Below are positions 1,681 to 7,320 of a DNA stretch of 64,000 bases, piece by piece. The DNA lies in contig NZ_CANLGX010000001.1 in assembly GCF_947490415.1 (NCBI RefSeq), positions 558,001 to 622,000 of the forward strand, written 5' to 3'. The translations under genes and the position numbers were made by a program. Each line of letters opens with the position of its first letter. Positions within the stretch are counted from its first letter, which is position 1. This DNA is from an uncultured Eudoraea sp. GTDB taxonomy: Bacteria; Bacteroidota; Bacteroidia; Flavobacteriales; Flavobacteriaceae. The notes under the pieces are model-generated. The model made no database searches. It saw nothing but the letters and a program-made list of their open reading frames with translations, and was not told where the DNA came from.

Positions 1681-3837
1681 TTATACGGCTACCGGCATTT
1701 GCTGTTTCCAAAGCCTGTAATAATATCCCTGCGAATGAAATAGAAAATTATGTGAGCCTTCCTCCAATACCTTGCCTTTATTCAATACTACTATTTTATC
1801 TGCCTGCAGTACCGTGCTGAGTCTATGTGCAATCAGAATTATAGTTTTGTCGGCTTCTCTGAGGCTTGCGACAGCTCTTTGGACATAGTTTTCTGAGCTG
1901 CTATCCAGGGAGGACGTCGCTTCATCGAGCACTAAAATTTCCGGTTCTTTGTATAGTGCCCTCGCAATAGCTATCCGTTGTTTTTGTCCGCCAGAGAGGG
2001 TAGCGCCATTCTCACCCAGATAGGTATTAAATCCGTCAGGTAGGTTTTCTATAAAATCCAGAATACCAATCCTCTTACAGATATGAGTAATCCTTTCCAT
2101 TGCCGGGGCAAATTCACCGACAGCAATATTGTCTATCACATTACCCGCAAACAAATCAATTTTCTGGGGAACTACAGAAACAAGTTCCCTGAGGCTTGTA
2201 TTATCGGTATATTTCAGATCAATTTCCCCTATGGAAATGGTTCCTTTTTGAATGGGATATAGGTTTTGCAACAAAGCTATAAGCGTAGATTTACCAGAGC
2301 CACTTTCTCCCACTATGGCCGTAATCTTACCCTTGGGAATAACCAAATTTAATTTTTTGAAGACCTCAACCCTCGTTCCATATCTGAAGGCTACATTTTT
2401 AAAAAGTATGTCCCCAAGATTTTCTTTTTTAATATGAATCTTATTTTTGGTATCCTCCCTTTCCAGATCCATAATCTCAAATAACCGGTCGGCTGCTATC
2501 AGCGCATTTTGTATTTCCCTGTTGGCCCCGATAAGGCTGGCCACAGGTCCGGTAAAATAGCCTACAATAGCATAAAAAGACATCAGTTCTCCCAGAGTAA
2601 TATCTCGATTTAGGACAAAGTAGGAACCGCTCCATAAAAGTATGATGGTAAATAATTTTGATATTGAACTACTACTTACTGAAGAGAAAACCGAATTTAA
2701 TGCAGAATTATACCCGGTTTTCAGTAAACTAATAAACTTGGTTTCGGTCTTGATATTGGCAAAGCTTTCCAGCCCAAATCGTTTTATGGTTCCAACGGCA
2801 TTCAGGGATTCTACCAACTGACTTTCCAATTCTGCAGATTTTTCCATGATCTTTCGTTCTGTTTTTCTGTTCAGCCTGTTCACCGTAAAATATACTATGG
2901 CATACACAGGAATAACTGTAAACATGATTAGGGCCAGTTTCCAGTAGAACGAAAACATGAGGGCAAAAGAAAAAATAATAATAAGCACATTTACGGTAAG
3001 ATTCAATGAAACCCCATTAATAAAGGCCCTGATTTTTACCGCATCATTGATACGGGATATGATCTCACCGACCCGCATTGTGTCAAAGAACTGCTGGGGT
3101 AGTTTAAAAAGATGTTTGTAATAACCCAGGATAAGACGCACATCAATCTGCTGACCCGATTTTATCAAAAAAACATCCTTAAATATCTCAATTAGGATCT
3201 GAAGTACAAGTAATACCATCATGATGACCCCTAATAAATTCAATAGCCTGGTGTTCCCGCCAACAAAAACAAAATCAGTTAACTTTTGAATATAAATAGA
3301 CGTAGAAAATCCCAAAAGTGTATACACAACAGCTCCGGCAAATGCCTGTAAGAGAATCCATTTATGAGGTTTTAAGAGGAACCAGAAACGTCTGTAAACG
3401 GAGACTGTTTCATTGCCTTTTACAAAATTCTTTTCAGGTTGTATGAGCAACAAAACGCCTGTCCACTCTTTTCGAAATTCATCATGGGTCTTTTTTTGGA
3501 GCTTCCCATAGGAAGGATCCATGATGGTTATATACTTTTTAGTAACCTCATAGATTACCACATAATGATGCAATACTTCTTTTACTATAACATGTGCTAT
3601 GGACGGCTTAGGTATTTTAAAAAGGCTCTCAAAATCTCCCCGCACCCCTTTGGCTTCAAATCCCAGTTTTTGGGCAGCTTCTAAAAGGCCTAGTATATTA
3701 GTGCCTTTTTTATCGGTGCCTGCATATTGCCTGATCCTGGCAATTGGGATCTGTAATTGGTAATGGGCCGCTATAGATACAAGGCAGGCCGCACCGCAAT
3801 CTGTAATATCGTGTTGTTTGATAGTTATTCTGGCCAT
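1681..3837 (-). CDS. Peptidase C39-domain ABC exporter (double-glycine peptide processing and export)
   Basis: This 718-residue protein fits the PCAT family: N-terminal C39 cysteine protease, ABC membrane domain, ATPase. Residues 1-130 carry the protease with Q8, the catalytic cysteine in DCGAACL (C14), histidine in HHYVVIY (H91) and aspartate in DPS (D107), so it looks active. The membrane domain spans about 155-440. The ATPase has Walker A GESGSGKST (about 507), signature LSGGQKQR (about 612), Walker B ILVLDEAT and H-loop IAHRLST. PCAT enzymes cut leaders after Gly-Gly and export the core peptide across the inner membrane. Four candidate substrates (3967-4116, 5159-5317, 5360-5518, 5540-5692) and the adaptor (5811-6971) lie just upstream on the same strand. 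Confidence 0.95.
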   Translation of the reverse strand: MARITIKQHDITDCGAACLVSIAAHYQLQIPIARIRQYAGTDKKGTNILGLLEAAQKLGFEAKGVRGDFESLFKIPKPSIAHVIVKEVLHHYVVIYEVTKKYITIMDPSYGKLQKKTHDEFRKEWTGVLLLIQPEKNFVKGNETVSVYRRFWFLLKPHKWILLQAFAGAVVYTLLGFSTSIYIQKLTDFVFVGGNTRLLNLLGVIMMVLLVLQILIEIFKDVFLIKSGQQIDVRLILGYYKHLFKLPQQFFDTMRVGEIISRINDAVKIRAFINGVSLNLTVNVLIIIFSFALMFSFYWKLALIMFTVIPVYAIVYFTVNRLNRKTERKIMEKSAELESQLVESLNAVGTIKRFGLESFANIKTETKFISLLKTGYNSALNSVFSSVSSSSISKLFTIILLWSGSYFVLNRDITLGELMSFYAIVGYFTGPVASLIGANREIQNALIAADRLFEIMDLEREDTKNKIHIKKENLGDILFKNVAFRYGTRVEVFKKLNLVIPKGKITAIVGESGSGKSTLIALLQNLYPIQKGTISIGEIDLKYTDNTSLRELVSVVPQKIDLFAGNVIDNIAVGEFAPAMERITHICKRIGILDFIENLPDGFNTYLGENGATLSGGQKQRIAIARALYKEPEILVLDEATSSLDSSSENYVQRAVASLREADKTIILIAHRLSTVLQADKIVVLNKGKVLEEGSHNFLFHSQGYYYRLWKQQMPVAV

Positions 3838-3910
3838 ACCTGGAAATCGTTATGGAACAAGGTAGTGTGACCGGCTGCAGAAGGGTTGCAAATTGCATTT
3901 TAATTAAACC

Positions 3911-3940
3911 AAAAAAACGCCTCATTAAATGAGGCGTTTT
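3911..3940 (-). terminator. Hairpin terminator after peptide gene at 3967-4116
   Basis: AAAACGCCTCAT pairs with ATGAGGCGTTTT around a short loop. Read on the minus strand it runs into a stretch of seven T (positions 3911-3917), as a Rho-independent terminator should. It lies 27 bases after the stop of the 49-residue peptide gene and before the exporter gene, so the exporter probably has its own promoter or depends on read-through. Confidence 0.8.
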
Positions 3941-3966
3941 CTAATTATTACTCTTCTAAAATTTTA

Positions 3967-4116
3967 TTATAAAAAATAGTGCCTAAACTGATAATAGGCT
4001 ACAATACTTAAAGTATCCATTAATTTTACACCTAAATCGTGTCCATTGTTATAATCTTTTTTAGTTCCTCCATTAATTTTTTGAAGATCCTTTGTGTTTA
4101 ATTCTATAGTTGTCAT
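3967..4116 (-). CDS. Double-glycine leader peptide, bacteriocin-like precursor 1
   Basis: This is a 49-residue ORF. The leader MTTIELNTKDLQKINGG fits the substrate consensus of C39 exporters: acidic at -8, Leu at -7, Ile at -4, Gly-Gly at -2/-1. Cleavage would release a 32-residue core starting TKKDYNNGHDLG and ending QFRHYFL, with a GxxxG motif (GHDLG) and a hydrophobic middle. The TKxDYxxGHxxG start is shared with the peptide at 5159-5317. There is no cysteine, so disulfides or lanthionines are excluded. It has its own upstream element (4154-4217) and its own terminator (3911-3940). That it is a bacteriocin is inference from leader, size and context; a signalling peptide is the alternative. 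Confidence 0.85.
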   Translation of the reverse strand: MTTIELNTKDLQKINGGTKKDYNNGHDLGVKLMDTLSIVAYYQFRHYFL

Positions 4117-4153
4117 TTTTTCTATTTGTTATAAATTAAGTAAGCATTAATAA

Positions 4154-4217
4154 ATAAACCCTTCAGTGCGCATTGAGATGATTCATTTACGCTAATATCA
4201 TAGCATTCCCCGCATAA
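4154..4217 (-). promoter_or_regulatory. Duplicated upstream element, copy B
   Basis: This 64-bp segment sits 37 bases before the start of the peptide gene at 3967-4116. It matches copy A at 5723-5787 at about 50 positions by hand alignment with one single-base gap. Shared blocks on the plus strand are ATAAACCCT, TGCGCA, GATGAT, GCTAA, ATCAT and CCGCATAA. The ATGAT and ATCAT blocks form an inverted repeat. The segment is non-coding and occurs only upstream of peptide genes here, so it is probably a shared promoter/operator or leader RNA. No matching regulator gene is adjacent. Confidence 0.65.
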
Positions 4218-4241
4218 ACTTCGCACTTAACTATCAAATTA

Positions 4242-4976
4242 TTAAAGGACTGATAAAACAGGCAAGATATTATTAATGCTATGAAACAGGCAAGAATAAA
4301 TAAAGCCGTATTTAATTCTAATATAACCGTTTATCGTACCACCCAGTAACTGAGGAAAAGTTAGTAATGGGAAAAGCAGGAATTTATTAAAAGTTAATTC
4401 TGAAAGATCTAAATGAAGTAATGCAAAAACAATTATAGTCGTATAATAAATCCATCTAAAATTTGCATTCCAAAATTTTAAAAAATAGATGAAATATTTA
4501 TTAGCATAAAAATAGGTGATCAACGCAAATAGAGCTGATATTAGAATTCTTTCCAGTACATACTTATCAATATCTAAATGGCTAATCCCAAAACCCAATT
4601 TAGAAGTAAGGACATATGTCAAAAGGAAAACGGATATTGTAATATATAATGGTTTAAAAACAAGTGACAATCTAAATATTGCTTCCTCCAGGAAAGGTCC
4701 GAATAGTAAGGCATATAGCATAAAATTTAGAGGTGATAGTTTATTTCTTATATCTACTACCGGAGGCTCGCCTAATTCTGCCCACGTAATTACTACAATA
4801 ATCCATAGTAACAGAAAAAATAACTTGATCAAATAAAATATAAAGACAGATTTAAGGTTCTTTTTGACATCATAAGATCTGCTCAATTTGCTATCAGGAT
4901 TCTTTAAGAAATTGACTATTGCTTTAATCTTTTGAACAATTACTTCTTTACCGGAGTTTTTATTTTGATTCTTCAT
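4242..4976 (-). CDS. CPBP-family intramembrane metalloprotease, candidate immunity or processing protein
   Basis: This 244-residue protein has about six to seven membrane segments. It carries the three CPBP (Abi/CAAX protease) motifs: EEAIFR (E97, E98, R102), FALLH (H188) and HSINN (H232, N236). The metal-binding and catalytic residues are therefore present. In Gram-positive bacteriocin loci, proteins of this family often give self-immunity (PlnI-like) or assist maturation. The position here, between the peptide genes at 5159-5692 and the one at 3967-4116 on the same strand, suggests the same job; this is inference. The protein has a charged 40-residue N-terminal extension rich in Lys. The start is the first ATG in frame, preceded by AAGGAG. 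Confidence 0.85.
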   Translation of the reverse strand: MKNQNKNSGKEVIVQKIKAIVNFLKNPDSKLSRSYDVKKNLKSVFIFYLIKLFFLLLWIIVVITWAELGEPPVVDIRNKLSPLNFMLYALLFGPFLEEAIFRLSLVFKPLYITISVFLLTYVLTSKLGFGISHLDIDKYVLERILISALFALITYFYANKYFIYFLKFWNANFRWIYYTTIIVFALLHLDLSELTFNKFLLFPLLTFPQLLGGTINGYIRIKYGFIYSCLFHSINNILPVLSVL

Positions 4977-5107
4977 AGAGTAAGGAGAATTTAATTATTT
5001 GACCTTTGAATTCACACCTTAGCTTTCATATTGAGATCTATACTTGAATTGACCCATTGGCATTGATCCTAAAAAACTTTTATAATGGGCAAGAAGACTG
5101 GAACGAC

Positions 5108-5142
5108 AAAAAAGTCACCCCAAATATGAAGAGTGACTTTTT
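5108..5142 (-). terminator. Hairpin terminator after the three-peptide unit
   Basis: AAAAAGTCAC (5109-5118) pairs with GTGACTTTTT (5133-5142), a 10-bp stem with T runs in both directions. It begins 17 bases after the stop of the peptide gene at 5159-5317 and so ends the unit 5692 to 5159 before the CPBP gene. Confidence 0.8.
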
Positions 5143-5158
5143 ACTTCCTTTAAACGTA

Positions 5159-5317
5159 TTAACCATTAATAAGACCAAAAGCCCATGAAACTACATCACC
5201 AAAGGTCTGAACACCATGTCGAATATGATCCCCAACGGCATGACCAAAACCATAGTCGCTTTTAGTGCCACCATTGATTCCTCTTAATTCGCGTAACTTT
5301 AAATATTCTATTTCCAT
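5159..5317 (-). CDS. Double-glycine leader peptide, bacteriocin-like precursor 2
   Basis: This is a 52-residue ORF. The leader MEIEYLKLRELRGINGG has Glu at -8, Leu at -7, Ile at -4 and Gly-Gly. The predicted 35-residue core begins TKSDYGFGHAVG and ends SWAFGLING. It has a GxxxG motif (GHAVG), several His and aromatic residues, and no Cys. The leader/core junction INGGTKxDYxxGH matches the peptide at 3967-4116, so the two are paralogs. It is the last of three peptide genes in a row (gaps of 21 and 42 bases) and is followed by a terminator. Antimicrobial function is inferred, not shown. Confidence 0.85.
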   Translation of the reverse strand: MEIEYLKLRELRGINGGTKSDYGFGHAVGDHIRHGVQTFGDVVSWAFGLING

Positions 5318-5359
5318 ATTTATTCCATTTTAAAAGTTATAATACTAAAATCTATTCAT

Positions 5360-5518
5360 CTAATGTTGATCAACCCCATTAATCCCATCCCAAAATCCAT
5401 GGGCAAAATCAAGACCTCTTCCGGCCATATCTCCCGCCATAAAAGCCAATATTTCATACCAGGCAGGTTTATAACCGCCTGCTATATTTTTCAATTCATT
5501 TTTATCTAAATTCCTCAT
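5360..5518 (-). CDS. Double-glycine leader peptide, bacteriocin-like precursor 3
   Basis: This is a 52-residue ORF. The leader MRNLDKNELKNIAGG has Glu at -8, Leu at -7, Ile at -4 and Gly-Gly. The 37-residue core starts YKPAWYEILAF and contains two GxxxG motifs (GDMAG and GFWDG), then ends GINGVDQH. GxxxG helix-packing motifs are the hallmark of two-peptide (class IIb) bacteriocins, which act as membrane pores. The core is amphipathic, Cys-free and close to neutral. It is the middle gene of the three-peptide unit. That it pairs with a neighbouring peptide is inference. Confidence 0.85.
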   Translation of the reverse strand: MRNLDKNELKNIAGGYKPAWYEILAFMAGDMAGRGLDFAHGFWDGINGVDQH

Positions 5519-5539
5519 TTTCTTTATGATTTTATTAAA

Positions 5540-5692
5540 TTAAAACAATTCCGTTCCATTTTTAAATCCACTCCACCATGCGTTGGCAGTCTTGCCCACC
5601 GCTATGGAAACATTTATTATAAACCTTGGCGGCGGACCAATTAGCACTCCCCCTTCTGTGTTTCTCAATTCGTATAAAGTCAATTCTTCCAT
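5540..5692 (-). CDS. Double-glycine leader peptide, bacteriocin-like precursor 4
   Basis: This is a 50-residue ORF. The leader MEELTLYELRNTEGG keeps Glu at -8, Leu at -7 and Gly-Gly, but has Thr at -4 where the other three have Ile. The 35-residue core begins VLIGPPPRF, has a hydrophobic stretch, a Trp pair and a GxxxG motif (GFKNG), and ends GTELF. It differs most from the other three. It is the first gene of the three-peptide unit and lies 30 bases downstream of regulatory element copy A. It is the least certain of the four substrates because of the altered leader. Confidence 0.8.
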   Translation of the reverse strand: MEELTLYELRNTEGGVLIGPPPRFIINVSIAVGKTANAWWSGFKNGTELF

Positions 5693-5722
5693 TTTTTTTA
5701 ATTTTTAATTACACATTTAGTT

Positions 5723-5787
5723 ATAAACCCTCCATTGCGCACCTGGATGATCTGATCTATGCTAAGATCATGACATACACCGCATAA
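5723..5787 (-). promoter_or_regulatory. Duplicated upstream element, copy A
   Basis: This 65-bp segment between the adaptor gene (5811-6971) and the first peptide gene (start 5692) is the partner of copy B at 4154-4217. The conserved blocks and their order are the same, and the inverted repeat is longer here (ATGATC with GATCAT). It follows the adaptor stop by 24 bases, so the three-peptide unit probably has its own promoter instead of relying on read-through from the adaptor. Confidence 0.65.
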
Positions 5788-5810
5788 CGCCTGCATTCAG
5801 ATTTAAAATT

Positions 5811-6971
5811 TTAGTGAGCGATAGAATTATTGGCCGGATTTAACCAATCGTCCATTTTATCGTACAGCAGTTCAAACAGGCTTCGCCTGCTCAACTTAAA
5901 ATTCGCGTTCAGGGTCATCCCTTTTTTAAGGTTTCCCTTAAATCCGTTTTTTAGGAGAAGGTATTTCTGGTCCAGGCTGCAGCGCACCTTAAAAACAGAT
6001 TGCTCTTCTAAAAATTCAATGTCTCTGCCTATCTCCATTACATGCCCCGTAGCCAGACCCCATTCATTGTAATTATAGGCATCTATCTGAAAGTTTGTGT
6101 GATCCTCTTCTTTGATGAGTCCAATGTCTGACGGACTCACATAACACTCCACCAGTAAAGAGGTGCTGGGAGATATTTGAGCCAGCACAGTTCCGGCGTT
6201 TACAAAATTACCGGCCTCCTGCTGCTGTACATTTAACAAGGTGCCACTGGCCGGGGCGGTGATGATGTACTGGCTTTTTTGTTCCACCAGTTGGTTATCA
6301 TTAGCCTGCAACTCTTTCAGGGTATTGTTATACAGGGTTAAATCTGCCTGCCATGAATTTTGTTGCTGTTTCCTGTGCTGCACTATTTCAGATACAGCCA
6401 GGTCAAATTCAAATTTGTAATTATCATATTCTGCCCTTGCAATTACCCCTTTTTCATATAAAAGTTTGTACCGCTCAAAATCTCGTTTTATCTTTTGCAA
6501 CCGAATCTTAAGTTCACTTAGTTTTTGATGGTATTGCAGGTAACTCTTTTGATATTTAGGTGAAGAGAGTTCTGTAAACCGGACAGTTTTTTGATTTAAA
6601 AGCAGCGTTAGGTCATTAATATAGGAAAGAGCTTCCTGGCTTTGAAAGGCAGAAAGGGTGAGTTTCTGGTCTATCCCCCGATTCTCCAGCACCAAAAGAG
6701 TGTCTCCCTTTGTTACCTTTTTATTATTGGCAAGGTCGCTATAAAGCACCTGGCCAGAGGTTATAAGGCTAAGCCCAAGGCGTTCCTTATTGGGTTTAAT
6801 AATTCCCCTGGCGGTGGCAACCACATCTACTTTTAGAAAAGGAAGGGTCATAAAAAACCCCAACAGCAGTAAAAGCAGGAGCAGATATATGACCTTACTT
6901 TTTGTGCTGTGCTTAAACCGGTGTACCTCTGTGGTATTTTCCAGGATCTCTTTGGGAAAAACCTGCTTCAT
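5811..6971 (-). CDS. HlyD-family adaptor of the peptide exporter
   Basis: This 386-residue periplasmic adaptor (membrane fusion protein) has a single N-terminal membrane anchor (about residues 28-46, rich in Leu). After it come a first half-lipoyl segment, a coiled-coil hairpin of about 110 residues (roughly 95-210), and the second half-lipoyl motif ITAPASGTLL (about 237). The C-terminal barrel follows. Such adaptors bridge a C39 ABC exporter to an outer membrane TolC-like channel. No TolC gene lies in this locus, so a channel encoded elsewhere, perhaps the one at 48670-50028, would be needed. It is first in the minus-strand locus and upstream of the peptide genes. Confidence 0.9.
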   Translation of the reverse strand: MKQVFPKEILENTTEVHRFKHSTKSKVIYLLLLLLLLGFFMTLPFLKVDVVATARGIIKPNKERLGLSLITSGQVLYSDLANNKKVTKGDTLLVLENRGIDQKLTLSAFQSQEALSYINDLTLLLNQKTVRFTELSSPKYQKSYLQYHQKLSELKIRLQKIKRDFERYKLLYEKGVIARAEYDNYKFEFDLAVSEIVQHRKQQQNSWQADLTLYNNTLKELQANDNQLVEQKSQYIITAPASGTLLNVQQQEAGNFVNAGTVLAQISPSTSLLVECYVSPSDIGLIKEEDHTNFQIDAYNYNEWGLATGHVMEIGRDIEFLEEQSVFKVRCSLDQKYLLLKNGFKGNLKKGMTLNANFKLSRRSLFELLYDKMDDWLNPANNSIAH

Positions 6972-7320
6972 TTTTTTGTGCCGTTAAATTTAGTTCCTGA
7001 ATAAGAAGCTGTTTGTAGCACAAAATAACCGTGTCCCCTGCAGCCTGCCTGCAAAGGGAATAAATGGACAAGAGGAGATAATGATTTGTTAATTTTTAGC
7101 AGCACATAGGTGTCCTTTAAACAAAAACATTTGACCCAACAATTAATTCATGGCCTGGACCATTGGTAATTATTAGTGGCAGCCTTGAATCTTATACTTT
7201 AAATTATTGGAATGAAAGTCCAACTAAATACCAGATAAACAGGATCATTAGCACCAAGTATTTATTTTTTCCTTATTTTCAATTCTAAGTTTCAATAACT
7301 TAACATGCCAATCTTTATTT
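6972..7320. other. Divergent intergenic region without a gene
   Basis: These 349 bases separate the adaptor (minus) from the MscS channel gene (plus) and must hold promoters for both. I found no ORF with a plausible start and no double-glycine peptide on either strand, and I could not fix a clear TAnnTTTG promoter. Confidence 0.6.

Follow-up and report, generated by a model that had tools for sequence, protein, structure and literature searches.

Results

A bacteriocin export locus with two copies of one element

The window is the whole analysed stretch of 64,000 nucleotides from the genome of an uncultured Eudoraea sp. On its minus strand, the features listed in Table 1 follow one another in the order HlyD-family adaptor, element copy A, peptides P1 to P3, a CPBP/Rce1-like membrane protein, element copy B, peptide P4, a terminator-like hairpin and the exporter. 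The locus contains a C39 peptidase ABC exporter, an adaptor and peptides with double-glycine (GG) leaders, the components by which a double-glycine bacteriocin export locus is recognized. The membrane protein is perhaps the immunity protein. Among the window peptides, only P4 passes a model cut-off, namely that of the leader model TIGR01847. By eye, peptides P3 and P4 have INGGTK.DY..GH in common and look like paralogues.

Table 1. Positions of the locus features in the window
Feature	Position	Strand	Remark
C39 peptidase-containing bacteriocin ABC exporter	1681..3837	-	TIGR01193 above cut-off
Terminator-like hairpin downstream of peptide P4	3912..3942	-	
Peptide P4, double-glycine leader, 49 aa	3967..4116	-	
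Element copy B, upstream of peptide P4	4154..4217	-	R2 model match 4129-4232
Copy B counterpart of hairpin P3: TCA, ATGCGCAC, TGA	4163..4176	-	14-base near-palindrome
CPBP/Rce1-like membrane protein	4242..4976	-	
Peptide P3, double-glycine leader, 52 aa	5159..5317	-	
Peptide P2, double-glycine leader, 52 aa	5360..5518	-	just under class IIb cerein/lactobin model cut-off
Peptide P1, double-glycine leader, 50 aa	5540..5692	-	
Element copy A, upstream of peptides P1-P3	5723..5787	-	R2 model match 5702-5802
Hairpin P3 of copy A: TCCA, loop GGTGCGCAA, TGGA	5731..5747	-	loop at 5735-5743
Hairpin P1 of copy A: TGCA ... TGCG	5781..5795	-	one G-U pair
HlyD-family export adaptor	5811..6971	-	23 bases from 5787, 14 from first base of P1 region (5796)

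The global alignment of copies A and B gives 50 identities in 64 aligned pairs, with one gap in 65 columns, as the sequence-only reading had reported. Their local alignment score is 79, while the best score among 2,000 mononucleotide shuffles is 38 and the best score of either copy against the rest of the window, with the copies and their edges excluded, is 31. The spacing was also given correctly, with 30 bases separating 5723 from the peptide P1 ATG at 5692 and 37 bases separating 4154 from the peptide P4 ATG at 4116. The proposed central inverted repeat, ATGAT/ATCAT, is clear in both window copies but is not preserved across all 12 copies of the genus, and the better supported hairpin sits 3' of it (TCCA-GGTGCGCAA-TGGA in copy A). 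The description of the element as non-coding was nearly right, except that copies A and B fall within short sense-strand open reading frames (ORFs; 5698-5796 and 4122-4226), which we judge not to be the conserved feature.

A terminator scan of window positions 3800-5900 returned four terminator-like sites (GC-rich hairpin and U-tract), none of which overlaps an element; the elements of other genera were inspected for such sites by eye only. One site on the minus strand, between peptide P3 and the CPBP gene (5098-5142, or 5098-5123 in the scan), shows by eye AGTCAC/GTGACT ahead of TTTTTT and is consistent with two separate peptide units. For promoters, the sigma-A pattern consisted of a TTG box at its usual spacing together with a second box. 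The latter was the sigma-A consensus TAnnTTTG, as given in PMC9723704. This search returned partial, scattered matches and no consistent site. Sigma-70-like sites, a promoter type unexpected here, number 17 in window positions 3800-5900 compared with 10.3 +- 3.1 in shuffles.

Conservation within Eudoraea

BLASTN with copy A alone missed even copy B in the same genome, and profile searches were therefore used. Ten Eudoraea genomes were searched, and a close HlyD was found in six of them (the window's own genome, G001-G004 and G009). All six carry one copy of the element past hlyD and another ahead of a P4-like gene, downstream of CPBP-gene sequence; for these assignments, ORFs were listed for the window and locus L022 only, and the contig of G002 ends at its B copy. 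R1, a sequence-only model built from these 12 copies, recovers them at E<1e-19, and its next match has an E-value of 0.001. Among the remaining four, three have a completeness of 60-82%, and the fourth, G006, is 99% complete with only a distant HlyD.

Across the six genomes, each copy resembles its counterparts in the same position, A with A and B with B, so the duplication predates these species. The most constant parts of the element in the genus are TGC.G, TTAGC and TGCGCA. In the 3.9 Mb genome of the window, copies A and B are the only matches in the searches with R1 and with the structural model R2 described below, and the element is thus not a generic scattered repeat.

Conservation across Flavobacteriaceae

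With R1, convincing relatives were identified in three genera besides Eudoraea, with two to three copies per cluster, ahead of GG-leader peptides. Its remaining matches (E 4e-4 to 0.01) had the appearance of chance hits or of coding sequence and were set aside. In the loci of other genera found with R1, a small regulator gene lies between hlyD and the first element; in L066 it precedes the first element without an adjoining hlyD. Homologues of this regulator, which occur in 51 loci and in 51/397 genomes of the family, led to many further elements, part of which were read by eye. R2, a model that includes structure, was built from 22 elements, all of them from genera other than Eudoraea.

R2 matches 23/397 family genomes at E<=0.01, or 19/237 genera, several of these 23 genomes having supplied elements to the model and so matching by construction. 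In the window's own genome, copies A and B are the sole hits at this threshold (E 0.005 and 0.007). Since R2 was built without Eudoraea, their recovery is an independent link to the wider family. The model is weak on Eudoraea, as G004 has both copies and yet no match at 0.01. In an order-level search, 5/395 genomes match, all in the window's family, which may itself supply many of the 395.

The position of the element is also preserved. When compared with random positions, 36/1,500 (2.4%) of which lie within 130 bases ahead of an ATG-started GG-leader ORF, 25/29 R2 hits do so. The R2 listing has 34 places, for 30 of which loci were inspected, and 29 entered this comparison (the truncated locus L200 was left out). 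The four misses are L189, L190 (which passes a looser test), L192 and L203; the hits L192 (G035) and L203 (G221) look like chance hits. The element precedes orthologous peptide genes in 6/6 Eudoraea genomes with the locus and in 19/237 genera, and neither its absence there nor dispersal through the genome, either of which would have spoken against the sequence-only reading, was found. The element is a well-supported putative cis-regulatory element shared by the peptide units, judging from its sequence and place, and it presumably controls peptide expression.

Alternatively, the element could be a recombination site, a cassette site, or a passive repeat that dates from the duplication of peptide modules. 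Positive genomes hold one to four R2 matches, and in L104, L109 and L115 a duplicated portion of the 3' end of the regulator gene accompanies the second copy, showing the way in which copies arise. Against this, A and B copies each stand at the same places in six genomes, each Eudoraea genome with the locus has only two matches at E<1e-19, and some genomes have a single match (G170, G023). This origin is very unlikely to account for the element.

Two other observations were made in these loci. A GG-leader peptide at L064 6412-6570, in a Flavobacteriaceae bacterium, comes near the lactococcin G beta/enterocin 1071B model (E 2.3e-6, below cut-off). In L135 and L137-L140 (Prolixibacteraceae, Mariniphaga and other Bacteroidia MAGs), the order of regulator and then GG peptide recurs with a different conserved stretch between them, consisting of GTAACGTTAC followed by CCTGC/GCAGG-type arms that change by compensation; it is perhaps a second leader family.

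Two covarying hairpins

The comparison across genera supports two helices, whose paired segments covary. Hairpin P1 has 4-5 pairs and a seven-base loop; its form CTGCA/TGCAG has the compensatory variants GTGCA/TGCAC and CTGCC/GGCAG. Hairpin P3 has, in some genera, an outer arm ATCAAAA/TTTTGAT, and an inner stem of free sequence round a conserved nine-base loop. Its stems vary while the loop is constant, for example TCCA/TGGA, ATCATTTA/TAAATGAT and TAAAGTA/TACTTTA. In a sister class, two tandem hairpins with [GA]ACG loops take the place of hairpin P3, and all 18 stems in its nine elements have 4-6 pairs; two extra downstream [GA]ACG matches (L195, G683a), counted outside these 18, pair 0 bases.

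In the 22 non-Eudoraea elements, 88.8% of cells are paired and the covariation score is 0.190 versus 0.101 +- 0.015 in shuffles (0/500), with a structure that was drawn from one row and with shuffle tests that exaggerate significance among related sequences. Seven pairs have changes on both sides (2/500 shuffles). When the structure is slid by 1-3 columns, 39-55% of cells are paired, and the +3 slide retains a covariation score of 0.142. A loop-anchored test was also performed on 33/55 elements in 9 groups, the 22 without the loop motif being left out. The summed stem score is 50.5 for matched flanks and 29.9 for permuted ones, with 0/20,000 permutations as good, and true flanks beat flanks swapped between groups in 9/9 groups, by +0.4 (L097) to +4.8 (L199). 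The stem score of copy A is 5 where 2.2 is expected (0/27 as good), while that of copy B is 2 where 2.4 is expected, which is the chance level, and copy B alone does not fold into a hairpin.

On the other hand, several measures give no sign of folding or of strand. In Eudoraea alone, covariation is no better than in shuffles, and one pair of hairpin P1 is missing in 4/12 copies. The z-scores of 90-base folds are positive in 12/12 Eudoraea copies, i.e. no better than shuffles, and those of 80-base folds range from -1.5 to +1.7 (-0.36 and -0.27 for the window copies). Among 44 folded elements, the mean z is -0.26 on the sense and -0.64 on the antisense strand, with no excess stability over shuffles. 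Flank pairing in 14 groups has means of -1.01 and -0.94, the antisense strand being as strong, and 5/14 groups are above zero on the sense strand. G-T cells exceed A-C cells by 27 to 3; as shuffles give 28.4 to 4.4, this excess is no independent sign of RNA and was dropped as a strand signal. None of these computed measures (folding z, flank pairing, G-T counts) prefers the sense strand.

Another reading of the element is a translation-coupled attenuator, in which a short ORF (a mini-ORF in Eudoraea, the tail of the regulator gene in other genera) would be read across hairpin P1 and the ribosome would decide the folding of hairpin P3. In all 12 Eudoraea copies the P1 region begins with a start codon, ATG in 10 and GTG in 2, these starts share one frame with no indel up to an invariant AGC, and the last codons of the regulator are in the same frame in L100, L157, L163, L173 and L134. 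Its weakness is that the ORF is not kept in all elements checked: 6/15 non-Eudoraea elements (L097a, L097b, L193, L196, L199, L207) have no in-frame start from the upstream stop to hairpin P1, the regulator ends in a different frame in L152 and L165, and in Eudoraea itself the ORF ends after 12-13 codons in 7/12 copies and after 23-34 in the other five. We therefore mostly reject a leader ORF, and attenuation of this kind appears improbable.

A self-complementary hexamer in the loop

A self-complementary stretch of at least six bases is contained in 42/47 loop cores, compared with 7% of random nine-mers; the cores come from 47/55 elements (L103b and seven GACG-type elements were left out), the sequences are related, and the limits of 14 cores were drawn by hand, in some cases with longer flanks, a choice that raises the count. 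A six-base palindrome survives just two, T3C and G6A, of the 18 single substitutions possible at loop positions 3-8, and the observed loops with one change at these positions carry only T3C or G6A. Loops with several changes and no hexamer are those of L099a and L107. Some elements have full DNA palindromes instead of the nine-base loop. Elements of the nine-base-loop class have the hexamer displaced from the middle of the stem, an arrangement that is natural for a hairpin but unnatural for a concentric DNA dyad.

Kissing-loop hairpins with a self-complementary loop hexamer are a known type. The element resembles them in its nine-base loop and off-centre self-complementary hexamer, with the difference that dimerisation is here only hypothetical. 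It is conceivable, although doubtful, that leaders A and B, and the leaders of separate transcripts, pair via the shared hexamer. The peptide units would then be co-expressed only at a sufficient level of leader RNA, as an RNA-level sensor of dose or co-expression for a multi-peptide bacteriocin.

A linked winged-helix regulator

The linked regulator has about 90-125 amino acids, and of three sequences tested one exceeds the Pfam HTH_11 cut-off. Its structure model is a winged helix (pLDDT 85.5), with NiaR and BirA as the nearest structures and no match at E<=0.001. The tail EIFGGSYF was considered as a C39 cleavage site and dropped, its first G being K, R, D, S or A in several homologues.

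The main rival to a leader RNA is a DNA operator, where this small HTH_11-like regulator, encoded elsewhere in the genome in the case of Eudoraea, would bind the double-stranded element and control the peptide promoters. The regulator, predicted to be a winged helix, occurs in 19/23 element-positive genomes against 51/397 overall (Fisher 2.4e-15, a value too small because the genomes are related), or in 10/11 at E<1e-6. The element starts within 60 bases past the regulator match in 12/19 genomes and within 1.3 kb in 16. The palindromic cores and the equal pairing on both strands suit an operator as well, and the window genome has an unlinked homologue of the regulator. Nevertheless, arms that vary around a preserved centre are the opposite of a usual protein operator, and in the nine-base-loop class arms and hexamer do not share a centre. 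The distributions also disagree in part: 32/51 regulator-bearing genomes have no R2 match, the Eudoraea genomes G006 and G008 have the regulator without elements, and G002 and G009 have elements without a close homologue, an absence that may be only apparent, the neighbouring gene being missing too. We regard an operator as possible rather than probable.

The unlinked Eudoraea homologue lies at L085 7790-8074 (C3:463792-464073 of the window's genome), alone beside genes read as TsaE-like and Xre-like. In G353 (L065), the same TsaE-like and Xre-like neighbours stand beside a complete bacteriocin locus. These shared neighbours suggest that at the Eudoraea site the bacteriocin cluster moved or was lost while the regulator stayed.

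Discussion

The best explanation of these results, in which we place moderate confidence, is that the element is a structured leader RNA of bacteriocin peptide units without a counterpart in Rfam. The sequence-only reading had left the choice between a common operator and a leader RNA; the stems vary while the loop stays, so a leader RNA is the likelier of the two, and covariation leans the same way, though not decisively. The folding of the Eudoraea copies at the level of shuffles, copy B without a clear hairpin, the lack of a strand preference and the sigma-A search without a consistent site all weigh against it. Leader RNA and operator are also compatible, as a regulator may act at the DNA and the hairpin in the RNA.

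If the leader reading holds, the element would be transcribed and act as RNA in controlling expression, at the start of the peptide transcripts or within a longer transcript. The RNA, of about 100 bases, would form hairpin P1 at its 5' side and a second hairpin, P3, that presents the conserved nine-base loop. As every bacteriocin peptide unit has its own copy of the element, a single signal, be it a protein, a different RNA or a further copy of the loop, could set expression of all the peptide units jointly and separately from the exporter genes. Between the hairpin and the start codon lie about 8 to about 140 bases, a range too wide for simple occlusion to be likely. Because of this variable distance, and with no terminator-like site on the window elements, we think that an effect on RNA stability or translation is likelier than one on termination.

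When compared with known systems, the element is like the Cis-reg leader RNAs of Rfam in its conserved place ahead of a gene group and in combining a conserved loop with stems that covary. It differs in having no Rfam match and in that its transcription is here inferred. A search of six loci against Rfam 15 gave 0 matches at the gathering score, and the six sub-threshold matches in window positions 3840-7000 at E<=5 do not fall on the elements. The genes resemble class II double-glycine loci in the C39 ABC exporter, the HlyD-type adaptor, the GG-leader peptides and the CPBP protein. In Gram-positive class II systems, control is often exerted by peptide pheromones, two-component systems and direct-repeat operators. 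The ORF list for the first 9 kb of the window contains no control genes of the pheromone or two-component type; by eye, a putative sensor kinase and response regulator are encoded further on, at 50-53 kb.

Within Bacteroidetes, the locus is like the Bacteroidetocins in its GG-leader peptides and C39 exporter, as far as the available part of PMC6671954 describes them, and differs from their cluster, which has a TM protein and a thiol oxidoreductase. That part of the paper describes no leader element or regulator for the Bacteroidetocins, and among the open-access papers searched, titles and abstract openings gave no description of such an element or linked regulator.

The element provides a signature, in sequence and structure, of bacteriocin peptide units across Flavobacteriaceae. 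Such a signature is useful, as these peptides are short and mostly under family cut-offs. Together with the linked winged-helix regulator, it offers a handle on the control of bacteriocins in these Gram-negative bacteria.
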